From a virus, in the IMG/VR virus record IMGVR_UViG_3300033388_002303, positions 1 through 40,852 of that record: DNA of 40,852 nucleotides; one strand, 5' to 3'. The notes under the pieces are model-generated. The model was not told where the DNA came from. It saw only the letters and a program-made list of their open reading frames with translations, and made no database searches. The position numbers were made by a program, and so were the translations under genes. Positions 8,083 through 39,309 of this stretch are shown here, one piece after another; the stretch's first letter is position 1, and every line of letters begins with the position of its first letter.

Positions 8083-8160
8083 TAAAAAGACTCACCCTGG
8101 TACGCATAGTATAGAGGCGTGATGAGTACTAGTCAGATACATTATAACATATTTAAAACC

Positions 8161-34198: not shown

Positions 34199-35761
34199 CT
34201 AACTTTCAATGTATTTTTTATATCCATCTGAATAACTCTTTGCAGAAGTACCGTTTTGAACAGCGTGTTCTTTCATCTGCCAAGCGATCACAACCGCTGT
34301 AAGTAGATCAAAATGCCTCGTTATCAATCCAGCCTTCTCGTCTTTCAAGTCTGAATTAGAGTAAGCCTTCATTTCTGCCAAAACGTTCTTGTCATATATT
34401 CTAATTAGTCCATCGTTATAATCTTTCTTGAATTCGTAGAACATATTGTATTTAGTCTTGGAGTTTGTCTCCCATCCCACTTTCTCATTCAGCCTTTCCT
34501 TTGCATTAGCTATTTTCTTTCCTCTGTATATCCTTGGGTAATCAAGTTGTTTTAATGTTGTTATCACTGTGCCTCCGCACTTATTGTTTACCTCTGGTGC
34601 ATAAACACAATTCCCAAACTCTGCCCCTACTCTTGCAAATTCGTGTGCTGAAAGATCAGGAGCTATTTCGTTGTTTGCATAAGTGACGATTAATTCTCCT
34701 ACAGTAAAGTCAAACAAGGCCACTGTGTTTGAATCTAACCCCACCCCTTCACTGTGATCACTTCCCATTCCATACCGATGATGTGGTTTGTATCCAGCCC
34801 AGTATTTGACTAACCCAGATAGTCTTTTAGGAGATGTACATAACTTTAAGTCCTCTCTTATCTTTTGGTAATCAAAGAAACAGTTTGTAGATTTAGTAGG
34901 GTCACACTGATACTCACCATAGAAGTCTTCAGCATCCTTTTTAAGCTGCTCTACCTTGGCAGATGAAAACATACTCCAGGTTACACTAGAATTGTCTTTA
35001 TCATCGCTCAAAAGAGGCGTAATTCTTGATTCCAGAGATTTTCCCATGAACCACTGAATCGTTCCTTGATCTGATATATAGTTACATGTCACGAAGTAGT
35101 TTCCATCAACCGATAGTCCGTCAATAGCCTCAGCGATTCGATTGATAATTGATTCTGTAACCACCATTGATCTAATTGAATCTCTATCTTCAACATCCTC
35201 AAACCATATCCAATCAGGACGATAAGCATCTTGAACATGCCCACGCTGTGTTTGTCCGACAGTTCCAGCTGAGTACTTCCTTCCGTCCTTTGTGGTGAAA
35301 CTCATCATTGTTTCTTCTCTTTTTGTGTCTCCAGCCTTTTCAAACACATCACCATAGATATCTTTCACCTCTACAATTAGATTATAAACATCTGTAACAA
35401 TCTGTTTTGAGTTCTTTAGGTCCTTTGTCAGCACCTTCATGTACTTCCTGTAGCCATCAGTGTCATTTAATAGCACAAACACATCAAAAAGCTTCTTCAA
35501 GCTAGTCTTTGCGCTTCCACGAAACGCCGCTTCGAGCATATTCTCTCCACGATACGACTTAATCATGTCCATAACCATGTCATCATGGAACGGTGCGGCT
35601 GGATGAGATAAGTATCGAGGGTAGTTTCCCCTAGCAAATACCTTAAACTTATCTAGAACAACCCTTATGTTAGTATCACTGCTAAACTCATAAACCTTTC
35701 TTTTCTCTTCAGGTGTTCCAGTCAGGATGATGTTTTGTATGTAGGCTTTATTCTTTATCAT
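34199..35761 (-). CDS. Terminase large subunit
   Basis: The start is placed at 35761 (MIKNKAYIQ), overlapping the upstream stop as ATGA; the in-frame extension to 35827 would lie within the upstream gene. Of 520 aa, the Walker A-like AAFRGSAKTS is at about 79-87, the Walker B segment WIWFEDVED at about 184-192 with its acidic pair, and coupling-type VTCNY follows. The C-terminal RNase H-like nuclease has D335 (GSDHS), an acidic/Asn site near 390 (PEVNNKCGG) and D485 (HFDLLTAVV). It drives ATP-dependent DNA packaging and cuts concatemers. Confidence 0.9.
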   Translation of the reverse strand: MIKNKAYIQNIILTGTPEEKRKVYEFSSDTNIRVVLDKFKVFARGNYPRYLSHPAAPFHDDMVMDMIKSYRGENMLEAAFRGSAKTSLKKLFDVFVLLNDTDGYRKYMKVLTKDLKNSKQIVTDVYNLIVEVKDIYGDVFEKAGDTKREETMMSFTTKDGRKYSAGTVGQTQRGHVQDAYRPDWIWFEDVEDRDSIRSMVVTESIINRIAEAIDGLSVDGNYFVTCNYISDQGTIQWFMGKSLESRITPLLSDDKDNSSVTWSMFSSAKVEQLKKDAEDFYGEYQCDPTKSTNCFFDYQKIREDLKLCTSPKRLSGLVKYWAGYKPHHRYGMGSDHSEGVGLDSNTVALFDFTVGELIVTYANNEIAPDLSAHEFARVGAEFGNCVYAPEVNNKCGGTVITTLKQLDYPRIYRGKKIANAKERLNEKVGWETNSKTKYNMFYEFKKDYNDGLIRIYDKNVLAEMKAYSNSDLKDEKAGLITRHFDLLTAVVIAWQMKEHAVQNGTSAKSYSDGYKKYIES

Positions 35762-36066
35762 AGGAACTGTTCGAGATACTTTAAAGGTTCTTCTTCTAGG
35801 ACTAGCTCTTGCGAGTAATACCTCCAAGCTTCTTCCCTATAATCATGGTAGCTGTCAAAGTAAGCTTCCTCAACTGGTCCATGCTTATTGGATATAAGCA
35901 ACATATCTTCTCCCCAGAAAGCTTTAGCAAAGTCGTGACTAAAGATAATTGAGCAGTAGCGCTCTGGGTGACACCCACATATTATTTTGTCATCATATTT
36001 AATATTTATCCACCCATTCTCTTTAGCCTTCTCAATAGCCTTTTTAAGTATCTGTTCTTTAGTCAT
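35758..36066 (-). CDS. Conserved small phage protein (102 aa)
   Basis: The start is set at ATG 36066 (MTKEQILKKAIEKAKENGW). Further residues include CGCHPERYCSIIFSHDFAKA, FWGED and a C-terminal EEPLKYLEQFL. From memory this pattern (HDFAKAFWG ... PLKYLE) recurs in small phage proteins of unknown function next to terminase genes. The stop overlaps the terminase large-subunit start. Confidence 0.65.
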   Translation of the reverse strand: MTKEQILKKAIEKAKENGWINIKYDDKIICGCHPERYCSIIFSHDFAKAFWGEDMLLISNKHGPVEEAYFDSYHDYREEAWRYYSQELVLEEEPLKYLEQFL

Positions 36067-36095
36067 TTTAGAATTGTTTATTGATCTTGTTGTCT

Positions 36096-36221
36096 TTAAA
36101 GTATCTTTATAAAAGCCCAAAGTGCTATCCACCATAATATATTTTTCACAGCATATATCGCCCTAATCAGCTCCTCATGCTCAGTCATTACCACTGTGCT
36201 TAACATCTCTCCTTCAATCAT
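36096..36221 (-). CDS. Small membrane peptide (41 aa)
   Basis: Coupled by ATGA to the Phd-like gene upstream. Acidic N-terminus (MIEGEMLSTVVMTEHEEL) and a C-terminal hydrophobic Trp-rich segment (NILWWIALWAFIKIL). The arrangement behind an antitoxin-like gene is where a small toxin would be, and a membrane-active toxic peptide is possible, but nothing in the sequence proves it. Confidence 0.5.
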   Translation of the reverse strand: MIEGEMLSTVVMTEHEELIRAIYAVKNILWWIALWAFIKIL

Positions 36222-36595
36222 AGTTTTTCAAGTTTACATAAATAAGATTTTAATATTTTTGATGAAACTGTTTTCTTGATACATGTCAGACACACGATGT
36301 GGTCTTCTCCTTCTTCCCAAAGCTTGTAGCACATCTCGTGCATCAAGTCACATTTTCCACATATATATTCAGTGATCATGTAGTCCACCGTTTTAGGGTC
36401 TTTTTTCATATATTCAGCATGAAATCCACTGTCAATAATAGGAGGAGCCATATCTCTCTGCATCTTTTCCATTACCTCGTTAAAATCACTCCCTTCTAGA
36501 ATCACTCCACGTACGCACAAAGAATTCCCTTCTGATAAATAATCTAGGTGCTTCTTGATATTCTTCCTGAACTCAGTGACTGTTATCTTTTTCAT
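36218..36595 (-). CDS. Phd/YefM-antitoxin-like protein fused to a zinc ribbon
   Basis: The start is set at ATG 36595 (MKKITVTEFRKNIKKHLDYL); an extension to 36754 would cover the tRNA-like element. The first 35 residues have the Phd/YefM pattern: ITVTEFRKNI, then a helix and SLCVRG. Residues 75-125 carry CGKC and CLTC pairs, a probable zinc ribbon instead of the usual toxin-binding tail. Phd-type N-terminal domains bind DNA as dimers and repress their own operon. TGTACA boxes lie immediately upstream, which are the core sites of Phd and YefM operators. No Doc, YoeB or other toxin gene is nearby. Confidence 0.62.
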   Translation of the reverse strand: MKKITVTEFRKNIKKHLDYLSEGNSLCVRGVILEGSDFNEVMEKMQRDMAPPIIDSGFHAEYMKKDPKTVDYMITEYICGKCDLMHEMCYKLWEEGEDHIVCLTCIKKTVSSKILKSYLCKLEKL

Positions 36596-36596
36596 A

Positions 36597-36645
36597 TGTA
36601 CACTGTACACGAGCCACGTACAGATTGCAAGAGATTGTCTGTACA
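36597..36645. promoter_or_regulatory. Array of TGTACA boxes (operator of the Phd-like gene)
   Basis: TGTACA at 36597-36602, 36604-36609 and 36640-36645, and a variant CGTACA at 36617-36622, within 49 bp right before the start codon. The outer pair is extended to GTACAGA-N13-TCTGTAC. TGTACA is the published core of the YefM-YoeB operator, and P1 Phd uses GTGTACAC. Confidence 0.75.
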
Positions 36646-36648
36646 TCT

Positions 36649-36737
36649 TGGAGAGGTGCGCCAGAGTCGAACTGGGTTGGGACTGATCAGCTGCCCACAC
36701 ACTACAGAATAGCGGCATCCACATGCTCCACACCTCC
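36649..36737 (-). tRNA. tRNA-like element with encoded CCA, isotype unresolved
   Basis: On the minus strand GAGGTGT (36736-36730) pairs with GCACCTC (36659-36653) in a 7-bp acceptor stem (8 bp if the flanking G:U pair is counted), followed by U and an encoded CCA. A T-arm has the canonical loop TTCGACT on a 4-bp stem. A CGCT-ATTCTGT-AGTG hairpin could be an anticodon arm (UCU), and TGGG/CCCA could be a long variable arm. The D-arm is short or unusual. It lies between the terminase small-subunit stop and the TGTACA boxes. Confidence 0.45.
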
Positions 36738-36740
36738 ACA

Positions 36741-37187
36741 TTAAACATCACCAAGCGCCTTCTTTATCGCTTCTCTCTTCTCGATATTGATAGTTACTTG
36801 AGGTTGTTTTTGCTTGTTATCCTTCTCGTATCGACCTTTAAGCTTGTTGTAGATTTCTATTCCACCTTTCTTCGAACCCATATCTGTAGACTGTGAAATA
36901 AGAAAGTTAAGCTCTGCATCTACTGACTCATTACTCAATGGCCCTAAATCGAGAACTTCCCTGATTCGCTCTAGTATATGTGGTTTTCGAAGGTTCTCTG
37001 CCGCTATAGAAGAGGCCACTGTTCTAATCAATGGCTTGTCATCACTTCCATAAGAGTTCATTGCCGCCTCAGTACCGTTTCCTAGGTTCTGTACATACTC
37101 ATTGCAAAACAGCTCTTCCTTTTCTGAAAGGACCTTTCCGCTTTTAGTCTTACCTGTTAATGGAGTTTCTCTTGTTTGTTTGGGCAT
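36741..37187 (-). CDS. Terminase small subunit
   Basis: The 148-aa protein has the terminase small-subunit pattern: LSEKEELFCNEYVQNLGNGT (21-40), A(A)ENLRKPHILERIREVL, and a C-terminal helical oligomerisation tail. It recognises the packaging site and loads the large subunit. It is followed, not directly by the large subunit, but by a small cassette with a tRNA-like element and three small genes. Confidence 0.85.
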   Translation of the reverse strand: MPKQTRETPLTGKTKSGKVLSEKEELFCNEYVQNLGNGTEAAMNSYGSDDKPLIRTVASSIAAENLRKPHILERIREVLDLGPLSNESVDAELNFLISQSTDMGSKKGGIEIYNKLKGRYEKDNKQKQPQVTINIEKREAIKKALGDV

Positions 37188-37190
37188 AAT

Positions 37191-37373
37191 TTAGTTATCA
37201 AAGTATCTTCCTATTGTTCCTTCTTTACCGCTTAGTTTAAAGATCTTGTGGTCTTCTATCTTTGCGAGCATTTCGTTTTCTGTATGCTTCTTTAGTTTCT
37301 CCAGGCTCTTATTGGTTGCTACTATAATCCATTGATTCTCTATCTTTACTGCAAATATGTACGTGTCCTTCAT
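37191..37373 (-). CDS. Hypothetical small protein after groEL (60 aa)
   Basis: The ATG overlaps the groEL stop. The product (MKDTYIFAVKIENQWIIVAT, then KLKKHTENEMLAKIED) is alpha/beta and charged. No family recognised. Being in the groESL transcript, it could be a chaperonin accessory or simply the next gene. Confidence 0.6.
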   Translation of the reverse strand: MKDTYIFAVKIENQWIIVATNKSLEKLKKHTENEMLAKIEDHKIFKLSGKEGTIGRYFDN

Positions 37374-39010
37374 TATTTGGCTGTGAAAAAGTTCCTTACA
37401 ACGTCTATATCGTCATCTGCGTCTGTTACTAAAAATTCACTTGTGATTAGAAGAGCTGAGACACTTACTGCGTTCTCTAAAGCACATCTTATTACCTTGT
37501 GTGGGTCTATTATACCAGCTTCAACCATATTTACCATCTCGTCTGTCAAAACGTTTACACCAATTCCATCTACCTTCTCTAGTTCCTTTATTGTTTTTTC
37601 GATTTTGTCGTCTTCGTATCCAGCGTTATGTAATATCTGAGTTACAGTTGCAAGACACGCTGTCTTAAGAACCCTTTCTCCAGCGGTGCTTCCTTTTAGG
37701 ACCTTAGAGGCATTCAAAAGAGCAACTCCTCCTCCTGGCACCACCCCTTCTTCCATTGCTGATCTAGTGGCGTTCACTGCGTCCTCTACCCTTAGGTTTA
37801 ATTCTGTTGTCTCTCCTCCAGTAGGTGAACCAATCTTGATGGTTGCCACTCCGCCAGTTAGGTTAGCATATCTTTCTTTAATTTGTTCTTTTTCAATCAA
37901 GTCTTCTGCGTTTTCTATTTGACATTCAACTACTGAAACTCTTGCCAGGTAGTCCTCGGACTTCATTCTCTCTTCTCCAACGGTAATAACTAATCCATGC
38001 CTAGACATGGACGCCACATCCACTTTCCCCATATCTTCTATACTAAAAGTGTTTAAATGAAACCCTGCCTCTTCATCAACAACCTTCCCTCCAGTTATAG
38101 AAGACAGGTCTTTGTATATTTCTGACATATTCTTGTTTGCAGTTGTTGGTCTAAACCAAACCCATTTTATATGTTCTGTGTTCCGTGCCATTGTCATTAT
38201 CAGCCTTCTGCTTAGCTTTTCCGCTACGATTAAAAATACAGGAACGTTCACGGATGGATGGCCGCCTTGTTCCCCTGGTGAAATAAAGTGCTTAAGAAGG
38301 GGGAGCCATTTCTTTTCAAATTCATGATCTTCTGGAGAGTCTTTTAGTACCAACACCCTTGCGCCATTAAGCTCTGTTTTCCATCCTTCTTTATCGTCAA
38401 ATACACCCTGCATTGGCTGTCCCTCTAGCCTCATTCCGTCATCCCTTTCAATAACAACCCCTTTTTCTGTAGACCCTTGAAAGGTTACCCCCCCTCCAAC
38501 GCCAATATCCTCCATCATTTCTCCAATTTGCCCCCCAACCTCTTCGTCTTGAGCAGACACAGATGCGACCTGGGCCTTTTCTTCCTGTGTTGTTACGTCT
38601 TTTGCGCTATCTTTCAGAGATTTCAAAATATCCTTCATTGCTGCCTCTATCTCTTTTCTTAGCAAAACAGGGTTTGCACCCTCTTCTACCTCTTTCCACC
38701 CCTCTTTGACAATTGCCCTAGACAACACTGTTGCTCCAGTGGTTCCGTCTCCAGCAGTAATGTTTGTATGAATAGCTGCGCCCTTAATGAGCTGAGCTGC
38801 GCTATCTTTGACTTTATTCTTAAACCCCATGTCTTTTATAATCTTAAACCCATCATTGACAACACTTGGGATTCCGCTTTCGTCAGACAAAATAACGTTC
38901 CTCCCCTTGGCGCCAAGTGTAGAGCCAACAACGTCTGCCACCTCGTCAATCCCTTCCATCATTAACTTTCTTGCAGAAGAATTATAAATTTGTTTTTTAG
39001 CTGTTCCCAT
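37373..39010 (-). CDS. groEL: Phage-encoded GroEL chaperonin
   Basis: A 545-aa, full-length GroEL. Equatorial ATPase motifs: TLGAKGRNV (31-39; the usual P is A), NDGF (52-55; the usual K is N), AGDGTT (86-91), the catalytic aspartate D410 in RVEDAVNATR, EEGVVPGGGVALL (420-432), and AGIIDPHKV near the C-terminus. Intermediate domain NLTGGVATIKIG is intact. The apical domain is divergent: the FDRGYLSPYF segment that binds GroES and substrate is missing (here ERDDGMRLEGQPMQGVF), as is the VKAPGFGDRRK block. The flexible GGM tail is absent. It most likely folds the phage's own capsid or tail proteins. Confidence 0.93.
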   Translation of the reverse strand: MGTAKKQIYNSSARKLMMEGIDEVADVVGSTLGAKGRNVILSDESGIPSVVNDGFKIIKDMGFKNKVKDSAAQLIKGAAIHTNITAGDGTTGATVLSRAIVKEGWKEVEEGANPVLLRKEIEAAMKDILKSLKDSAKDVTTQEEKAQVASVSAQDEEVGGQIGEMMEDIGVGGGVTFQGSTEKGVVIERDDGMRLEGQPMQGVFDDKEGWKTELNGARVLVLKDSPEDHEFEKKWLPLLKHFISPGEQGGHPSVNVPVFLIVAEKLSRRLIMTMARNTEHIKWVWFRPTTANKNMSEIYKDLSSITGGKVVDEEAGFHLNTFSIEDMGKVDVASMSRHGLVITVGEERMKSEDYLARVSVVECQIENAEDLIEKEQIKERYANLTGGVATIKIGSPTGGETTELNLRVEDAVNATRSAMEEGVVPGGGVALLNASKVLKGSTAGERVLKTACLATVTQILHNAGYEDDKIEKTIKELEKVDGIGVNVLTDEMVNMVEAGIIDPHKVIRCALENAVSVSALLITSEFLVTDADDDIDVVRNFFTAK

Positions 39011-39012
39011 AG

Positions 39013-39309
39013 TTATTTTTTAATTCCTAAAATATCTTCAGTTTTAACAAACACCAACTCATTTTCTGAGTCCATGTTTGCAATAAAGTGTTTTTTAAAA
39101 TAAATAATAGCCCCTTTTTTAAGGCCCTTCATTCTTAATTTTTCGCTAATTGTTCCAACCTCTAAAACCCTTCCCTCGTTCTTCATACCGTCTTGCTCAG
39201 CACCAGGTGATAGCTTTAAGCCACCACAATCTATTTTCTCCTTCTCAACCAGTACTGTTTTTCCAATTACGGTTATTGAGGGTTGCTTTTTGTCGCTGTT
39301 TTGAGTCAT
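39013..39309 (-). CDS. groES: Phage-encoded GroES co-chaperonin
   Basis: A 98-aa protein with the GroES order of strands: TVIGKTVLVEKEKIDCGGLK (13-32) with the mobile-loop GGLKL corresponding to GGIVL, GRVLEVG (46-52), KKGAIIYFKK (64-73) and VKTEDILGI (88-96). A 10-residue N-terminal extension precedes the first strand. It ends 2 bp before groEL, so both are made together and can form a matched chaperonin pair. Promoter and palindrome lie just upstream. Confidence 0.88.
   Translation of the reverse strand: MTQNSDKKQPSITVIGKTVLVEKEKIDCGGLKLSPGAEQDGMKNEGRVLEVGTISEKLRMKGLKKGAIIYFKKHFIANMDSENELVFVKTEDILGIKK

Follow-up and report, generated by a model that had tools for sequence, protein, structure and literature searches.

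The window, i.e., the entire 40,852-nucleotide stretch of viral DNA analysed here, carries on its minus strand a packaging operon in the order GroES, GroEL, terminase small subunit, cassette, and terminase large subunit (TerL). The cassette includes a gene for a putative YefM-derived protein, and upstream of this gene lie an array of TGTACA boxes and a tRNA-like element. The features of the region, in window coordinates, are:

34199 to 35760, minus strand: terminase large subunit (PHROG 4.1e-12); probable start codon ATG at 35760, which overlaps the stop codon of the ORF before it
35758 to 36135, minus strand: last cassette ORF; likely start at 36066, 102 aa; family in 33 other viral contigs
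36096 to 36221, minus strand: 41-aa ORF with a hydrophobic C-terminus, joined to the YefM-like gene by an ATGA overlap of start and stop codons
36218 to 36595, minus strand: putative YefM-derived protein, 125 aa; ATG start at 36595, without a Shine-Dalgarno sequence, like nearly all genes of the phage
36281 to 36361, minus strand: cysteine-rich segment, aa 79-105, a possible zinc site judged from sequence only (C79xxC82 ... C102xxC105, also C89)
36452 to 36595, minus strand: aa 1-48, a predicted DNA-binding domain of the Phd/YefM type (beta-alpha-beta-beta-alpha), in which R10 and R29 correspond to the arginines that contact the operator in YefM
36597 to 36645, no strand assigned: operator-like array, TGTACA at 36597-36602, 36604-36609, and 36640-36645, CGTACA at 36617-36622; start-to-start spacings 7, 13, and 23
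36618 to 36644, minus strand: possible RNA hairpin within the array, GTACAGA/TCTGTAC, 7 bp (z -0.87, not significant)
36649 to 36736, minus strand: tRNA-like element with an 8-bp acceptor, a 4-bp T stem with GTTCGACTC, a four-base D loop, a long variable arm, and an encoded CCA
36741 to 37187, minus strand: terminase small subunit (Pfam Terminase_2 1.2e-9; PHROG 4.6e-15)

An earlier note on this DNA had placed the YefM-like gene between the terminase genes, and both subunits could indeed be identified on either side of it. The cassette ORFs overlap one another and TerL. The tRNA-like element, which the earlier note overlooked, fills the gap between the stop of the small subunit gene (36741) and the array, starting 4 bp past that stop and ending 3 bp before the boxes. 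In the two TerL relatives with sequence upstream of TerL (L002 and L005, 57% identical TerL), a small ORF overlaps TerL directly, without such an insertion, and in the nearest relatives of the small subunit (L007, 62%, and L008, 39%) a different large subunit follows at once. Judged by these junctions, these relatives lack the ~1 kb that spans the tRNA-like element and the ORFs up to TerL, which marks it as a cassette.

Several observations concern the wider neighbourhood. Phage genes for a GroEL (545 aa) and a GroES (98 aa) adjoin the terminase genes on their upstream side (37373-39309, minus strand). By eye, the large terminase ORF of L008 (5407-7725) holds an intein-like insertion, with an HNH-like ORF overlapping in another frame. 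The host is probably a member of the Bacteroidota, since Shine-Dalgarno sequences are practically absent in the 37 genes checked (the leaders are A-rich) and the best DNA and protein neighbours are from Bacteroidota, i.e., Cellulophaga phages for GroEL and Flavobacteriaceae for the YefM-like domain.

The N-terminal domain of the YefM-like protein

The N-terminal sequence of the protein is MKKITVTEFRKNIKKHLDYL. The Pfam PhdYefM model (PF02604) scores 14.4 bits against the protein, below the curated cut-off of 29.8, and covers only aa 1-22. When ten flavobacterial antitoxins were compared to the protein using hhalign, a match of 93% was obtained, with an E value of 3.2e-7 and 52% identity over 27 residues. 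The N-terminal 30 residues score 72-75 against a shuffled mean of ~20, a score reached by none of 5000 shuffles. A tblastn search of 84,980 genomes retrieved only two relatives, both of them antitoxin genes of Flavobacteriaceae yefM-yoeB operons; the products of both pass Pfam PhdYefM, and YoeB is encoded directly downstream in each case (PF06769, 5.7e-28 and 2.4e-22). Relatives of the protein as a whole were not found beyond chance in phages, viral contigs, or 395 Bacteroidota genomes, and a sequence search of the PDB with the protein yielded nothing relevant.

In E. coli YefM, R10 and R31 are essential for operator DNA binding (PMC4803016), and in the alignment both are kept in the phage protein, as R10 and R29. 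An AlphaFold model of aa 1-75, built from an alignment that included three relatives, has the order beta-alpha-beta-beta-alpha, with pLDDT ~80 for aa 1-30 and confidence only to about aa 40. The best 45 Foldseek matches of this model in the PDB are all antitoxins, mostly Phd/YefM and several of them on operator DNA, with a best E value of 0.05, and VIA-align gave a modest Z of up to 3.8 over 37-38 residues. Because the input alignment contained YefM rows, the fold model is supporting rather than independent evidence; the full-length model is uninformative (pLDDT 36). The Phd/YefM-like N-terminus proposed in the earlier note is thus borne out by the hhalign match and the two arginines, with support from the antitoxin-only Foldseek matches. 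By homology, residues 1 to ~48 make up a domain of the YefM DNA-binding type, for which DNA binding is predicted. The phage protein has the predicted fold, R10 and the second arginine, and the TGTACA core in common with E. coli YefM and P1 Phd, but it differs from them in its shortened beta2-beta3 turn, its cysteine-rich C-terminus, the lack of a toxin, and the box spacing of 13/7/23.

A longer protein, starting from an ATG at about 36715 behind a GGAGGTG, was considered and rejected. The GGAGGTG forms a strand of the acceptor in the tRNA-like element, the YefM homology begins at the ATG at 36595, and practically none of the 37 checked genes has a Shine-Dalgarno sequence.

The TGTACA boxes and the operators of bacterial relatives

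The three TGTACA boxes and one CGTACA that had been described before the ATG were confirmed, and they occupy 49 bp that end 1 bp upstream of the start codon (36595-36593, minus strand). The probability of at least three exact TGTACA in the 145-bp gap is 6e-6 with the composition of the window and 1.7e-4 with the gap's own composition. Of all 64 palindromic hexamers, only TGTACA and the low-complexity ATATAT, TATATA, and TTTAAA occur three times in a 60-bp span at any place in the window. Window-wide, TGTACA is mildly enriched, with 16 copies seen vs 10.1 expected and 16 being reached by 5 of 100 shuffles. The motif was picked after the fact; nevertheless, the look-elsewhere penalty for its clustering is small, since the motif had already been tied to YefM/Phd operators in the earlier note and was then confirmed on independent sequences.

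For this independent test, yefM-type genes were sought in 246 Flavobacteriaceae genomes, and the 120 bp ahead of each matched gene were scored. Exact TGTACA was seen 25 times against 1.45 expected, a count in which L051 and L053 represent one gene and a few antitoxin loci were matched only via the tail. In most genes whose N-terminus reads SDFRK or SEFRK, two TGTAC(A/G/T) boxes stand upstream at a distance of exactly 12 bp, and a TAnnTTTG element, the -7 box of Bacteroidota, lies between them or just downstream; this operator is conserved among the flavobacterial yefM-type genes L053-L082. The distance of 12 bp is the same as in the E. coli and enterococcal operators (PMC7730913), and in E. 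coli, cooperative binding is disturbed when the distance between the boxes is altered (PMC4803016). As the yefM-type genes of Flavobacteriaceae carry the same boxes upstream, the boxes and the YefM domain belong together. The enrichment upstream of the bacterial relatives supports the earlier reading of the boxes as YefM-type operator boxes, while their geometry in the phage differs from the canonical 12-bp pair.

As in flavobacterial yefM-type operators, the phage array includes a TGTACG variant beside a TGTACA. A canonical yefM-yoeB operator would have a box pair with a centre-to-centre distance of 12 bp overlapping the promoter; the spacings in the phage array are 23, 13, and 7, no TAnnTTTG element was found near it, and a sigma-70 promoter scan returned nothing at the array. 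Judged by its layout, the array is operator-like and not a canonical operator. The gene was found in no other phage, and the boxes are conserved upstream of the bacterial relatives instead.

The non-canonical spacing, the missing promoter element and toxin, and the sub-threshold Pfam domain would all fit a decaying remnant of a captured yefM-yoeB module, in which the toxin was lost, the tail was replaced, the spacing drifted, and no present function is left. We consider such decay improbable, given that the ORF is intact and overlaps the next ORF by ATGA, and that both contact arginines and four boxes are retained. In another reading, the boxes would be a by-product of RNA structure, with the array serving as the 3' trailer of the tRNA-like element, complete with processing hairpins and unrelated to the protein. 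The array does start 3 bp after the encoded CCA, and two hairpins can form. However, the hairpins are no more stable than shuffles (z -0.87), and TGTACA boxes serve this very protein family as its operator, which makes this reading very improbable.

The cysteine-rich tail, the missing toxin, and possible roles

The motifs CGKC (aa 79-82) and CLTC (aa 102-105) form a CxxC-x19-CxxC pattern, with 20 further residues after CLTC. No family matched the cysteine segment above threshold in profile searches, the tail's only profile match being PHROG 27542 (unknown function, E 0.007), and no relatives of the tail were found in phages, viral contigs, or genomes. A zinc ribbon is a plausible reading of the pattern rather than an established domain. 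The flavobacterial antitoxins end in a DUF2683-like toxin-binding tail, per profile match; no DUF2683 match was found in the phage protein, and beyond aa 70 its tail has no similarity to antitoxins. Residues 55-65 (DSGFHAEYMKK) show a weak 11-residue likeness to the antitoxin sequence DSGYNPEFVNK, the score of which is reached by 8 and 18 of 5000 shuffles, and a short remnant of the toxin-binding segment may persist in the phage tail. The proposal that a zinc ribbon has replaced the toxin-binding tail may hold: CGKC and CLTC are present and DUF2683 is not matched, but the zinc ribbon finds no profile support and an 11-residue remnant of the toxin-binding segment is possible. Taken together, the phage gene and the yefM-yoeB operons of Flavobacteriaceae (L050, L051, and others among L053-L082) have the N-terminal domain sequence and the upstream TGTAC(A/G/T) boxes in common, whereas the 12-bp box pair with TAnnTTTG, the DUF2683-like tail, and the YoeB gene immediately downstream are absent in the phage.

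Consistent with the earlier claim that there is no classical toxin, neither YoeB (PF06769) nor ParE (PF05016) was matched in the whole record, which may itself be a fragment with a distant toxin gene possible. It had been suggested that the 41-aa hydrophobic peptide might instead be the toxin paired with the antitoxin-like protein. Its start overlaps the stop of the YefM-like gene and its C-terminus is hydrophobic, but it has no family match and only ~14 consecutive hydrophobic residues, and the partners of the relatives are YoeB proteins. We found no evidence in favour of this suggestion and regard a toxin role of the peptide as highly unlikely.

An orphan YefM-type protein of 72 aa is encoded in another viral contig (L083, 2501-2719), where it is flanked by an ORF for a small membrane protein and a RecT-like gene. 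Like the protein described here, it is a toxinless YefM-type phage protein, but unlike it, it has no TGTACA boxes, no cysteine tail, and a different gene neighbourhood. Solo antitoxins are abundant (PMC2701414; PMC7354431). Given this abundance and the toxinless YefM of L083, the kind of protein is already known; the new features are the cysteine tail, the box geometry, and the tRNA-like neighbour. Literature searches turned up nothing relevant on a YefM fused to a zinc ribbon or on a phage case already described.

Orphan antitoxins have been proposed to counter addiction as anti-addiction modules, Dmd being a case from a phage (PMC7354431). Similarly, the YefM-like protein could serve in counter-defence by neutralising a YoeB-type toxin of the host, its operator being inherited from the toxin-antitoxin operon. 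Its closest relatives are YoeB antitoxins, aa 55-65 resemble the start of the relatives' toxin-binding tail, another phage (L083) also has a toxinless YefM, and there is the precedent of phage Dmd neutralising RnlA. Nevertheless, the tail past aa 70 is unlike antitoxins and gives no DUF2683 match, unlike the tails of the relatives, and we rate a counter-defence role as unlikely, if conceivable.

The explanation that we favour, and hold to be fairly probable, is a toxinless, autoregulated DNA-binding protein derived from a Bacteroidota yefM-yoeB antitoxin, with a cysteine tail replacing most of the toxin-binding tail. From the evidence above, we infer dimerisation, DNA binding, repression, zinc binding, and an effect on the terminase gene as follows. 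The N-terminal half would derive from the Bacteroidota antitoxin and now sit in a cassette flanked by the genes of the two terminase subunits. Most likely, the protein forms a dimer and occupies the TGTACA boxes immediately ahead of its own start codon; once bound, it would repress its own cassette, possibly with less read-through into the large terminase gene. The toxin would have been lost and the toxin-binding tail largely replaced by the cysteine-rich segment, which may bind zinc, giving a new partner or stability. This may serve autoregulation alone, temper TerL expression, or have turned into a counter-toxin role. For the idea that the protein times the packaging genes, no supporting evidence was found. 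The exaptation of solo antitoxins as regulators or counter-toxins is often proposed and rarely anchored; with the DNA-binding half and operator boxes kept together, and the toxin and most of the toxin-binding tail gone, exaptation becomes directly testable at this locus.

The tRNA-like element

The acceptor strands of the tRNA-like element are GAGGTGTG and CGCACCTC, the T arm reads CCAG-TTCGACT-CTGG, and the 3' end is a U followed by CCA. The element is the sole place in the window where a 3' half of this kind occurs with a matching 5' strand, the chance being ~1e-4 per 145 bp. Its minimum free energy fold is a full cloverleaf that is no more stable than shuffles, and its anticodon is ambiguous, being UCU if the loop has seven bases. 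In a local search, the Rfam tRNA-Sec model scored 24 bits (E 0.0084) against a gathering score of 47; the whole-window Rfam search had no match at the element, and ARAGORN called no tRNA there. Elsewhere in the window, at 8090-8126 (minus strand), there is a weak Rfam match to the abiF RNA (25.2 bits, E 2.4) which is probably due to chance.

The 8-bp acceptor, 4-bp T stem, long variable arm, and CCA are common to the element and to 8/4 allo-tRNAs resembling tRNA-Sec (PMC7609411). In contrast to these, the phage element has a U73 discriminator, an irregular anticodon arm, a single copy in the phage, and a sub-gathering Rfam score, and it could equally be a decayed tRNA. Some allo-tRNAs do not work in translation, and one group is hypothesised to go with transposons or toxin-antitoxin systems (PMC7609411). 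The element would thus be a further case of the little-understood non-canonical tRNA-likes hypothesised to accompany mobile elements or toxin-antitoxin systems. It is conceivable, though we think it quite doubtful, that the cassette is autonomous and that its non-canonical tRNA-like RNA works as a functional unit with a toxinless repressor of the YefM type whose tail binds metal. In this reading, the protein would control the output of the cassette and of the downstream large terminase gene via the TGTACA array, which lies between its gene and the tRNA-like RNA.

No convincing DNA relatives of the tRNA-like element and array were found in 320 Flavobacteriaceae genomes. Among phages, the only DNA relative is a 26-bp match to the T arm in the tRNA cluster of Escherichia phage KWBSE43-6 (L049), where an unannotated stretch at ~1440-1526 is identical to the T arm and acceptor of the element at 25 of 26 bases. 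Rfam found no tRNA at this stretch, which may be an undetected or decayed tRNA.
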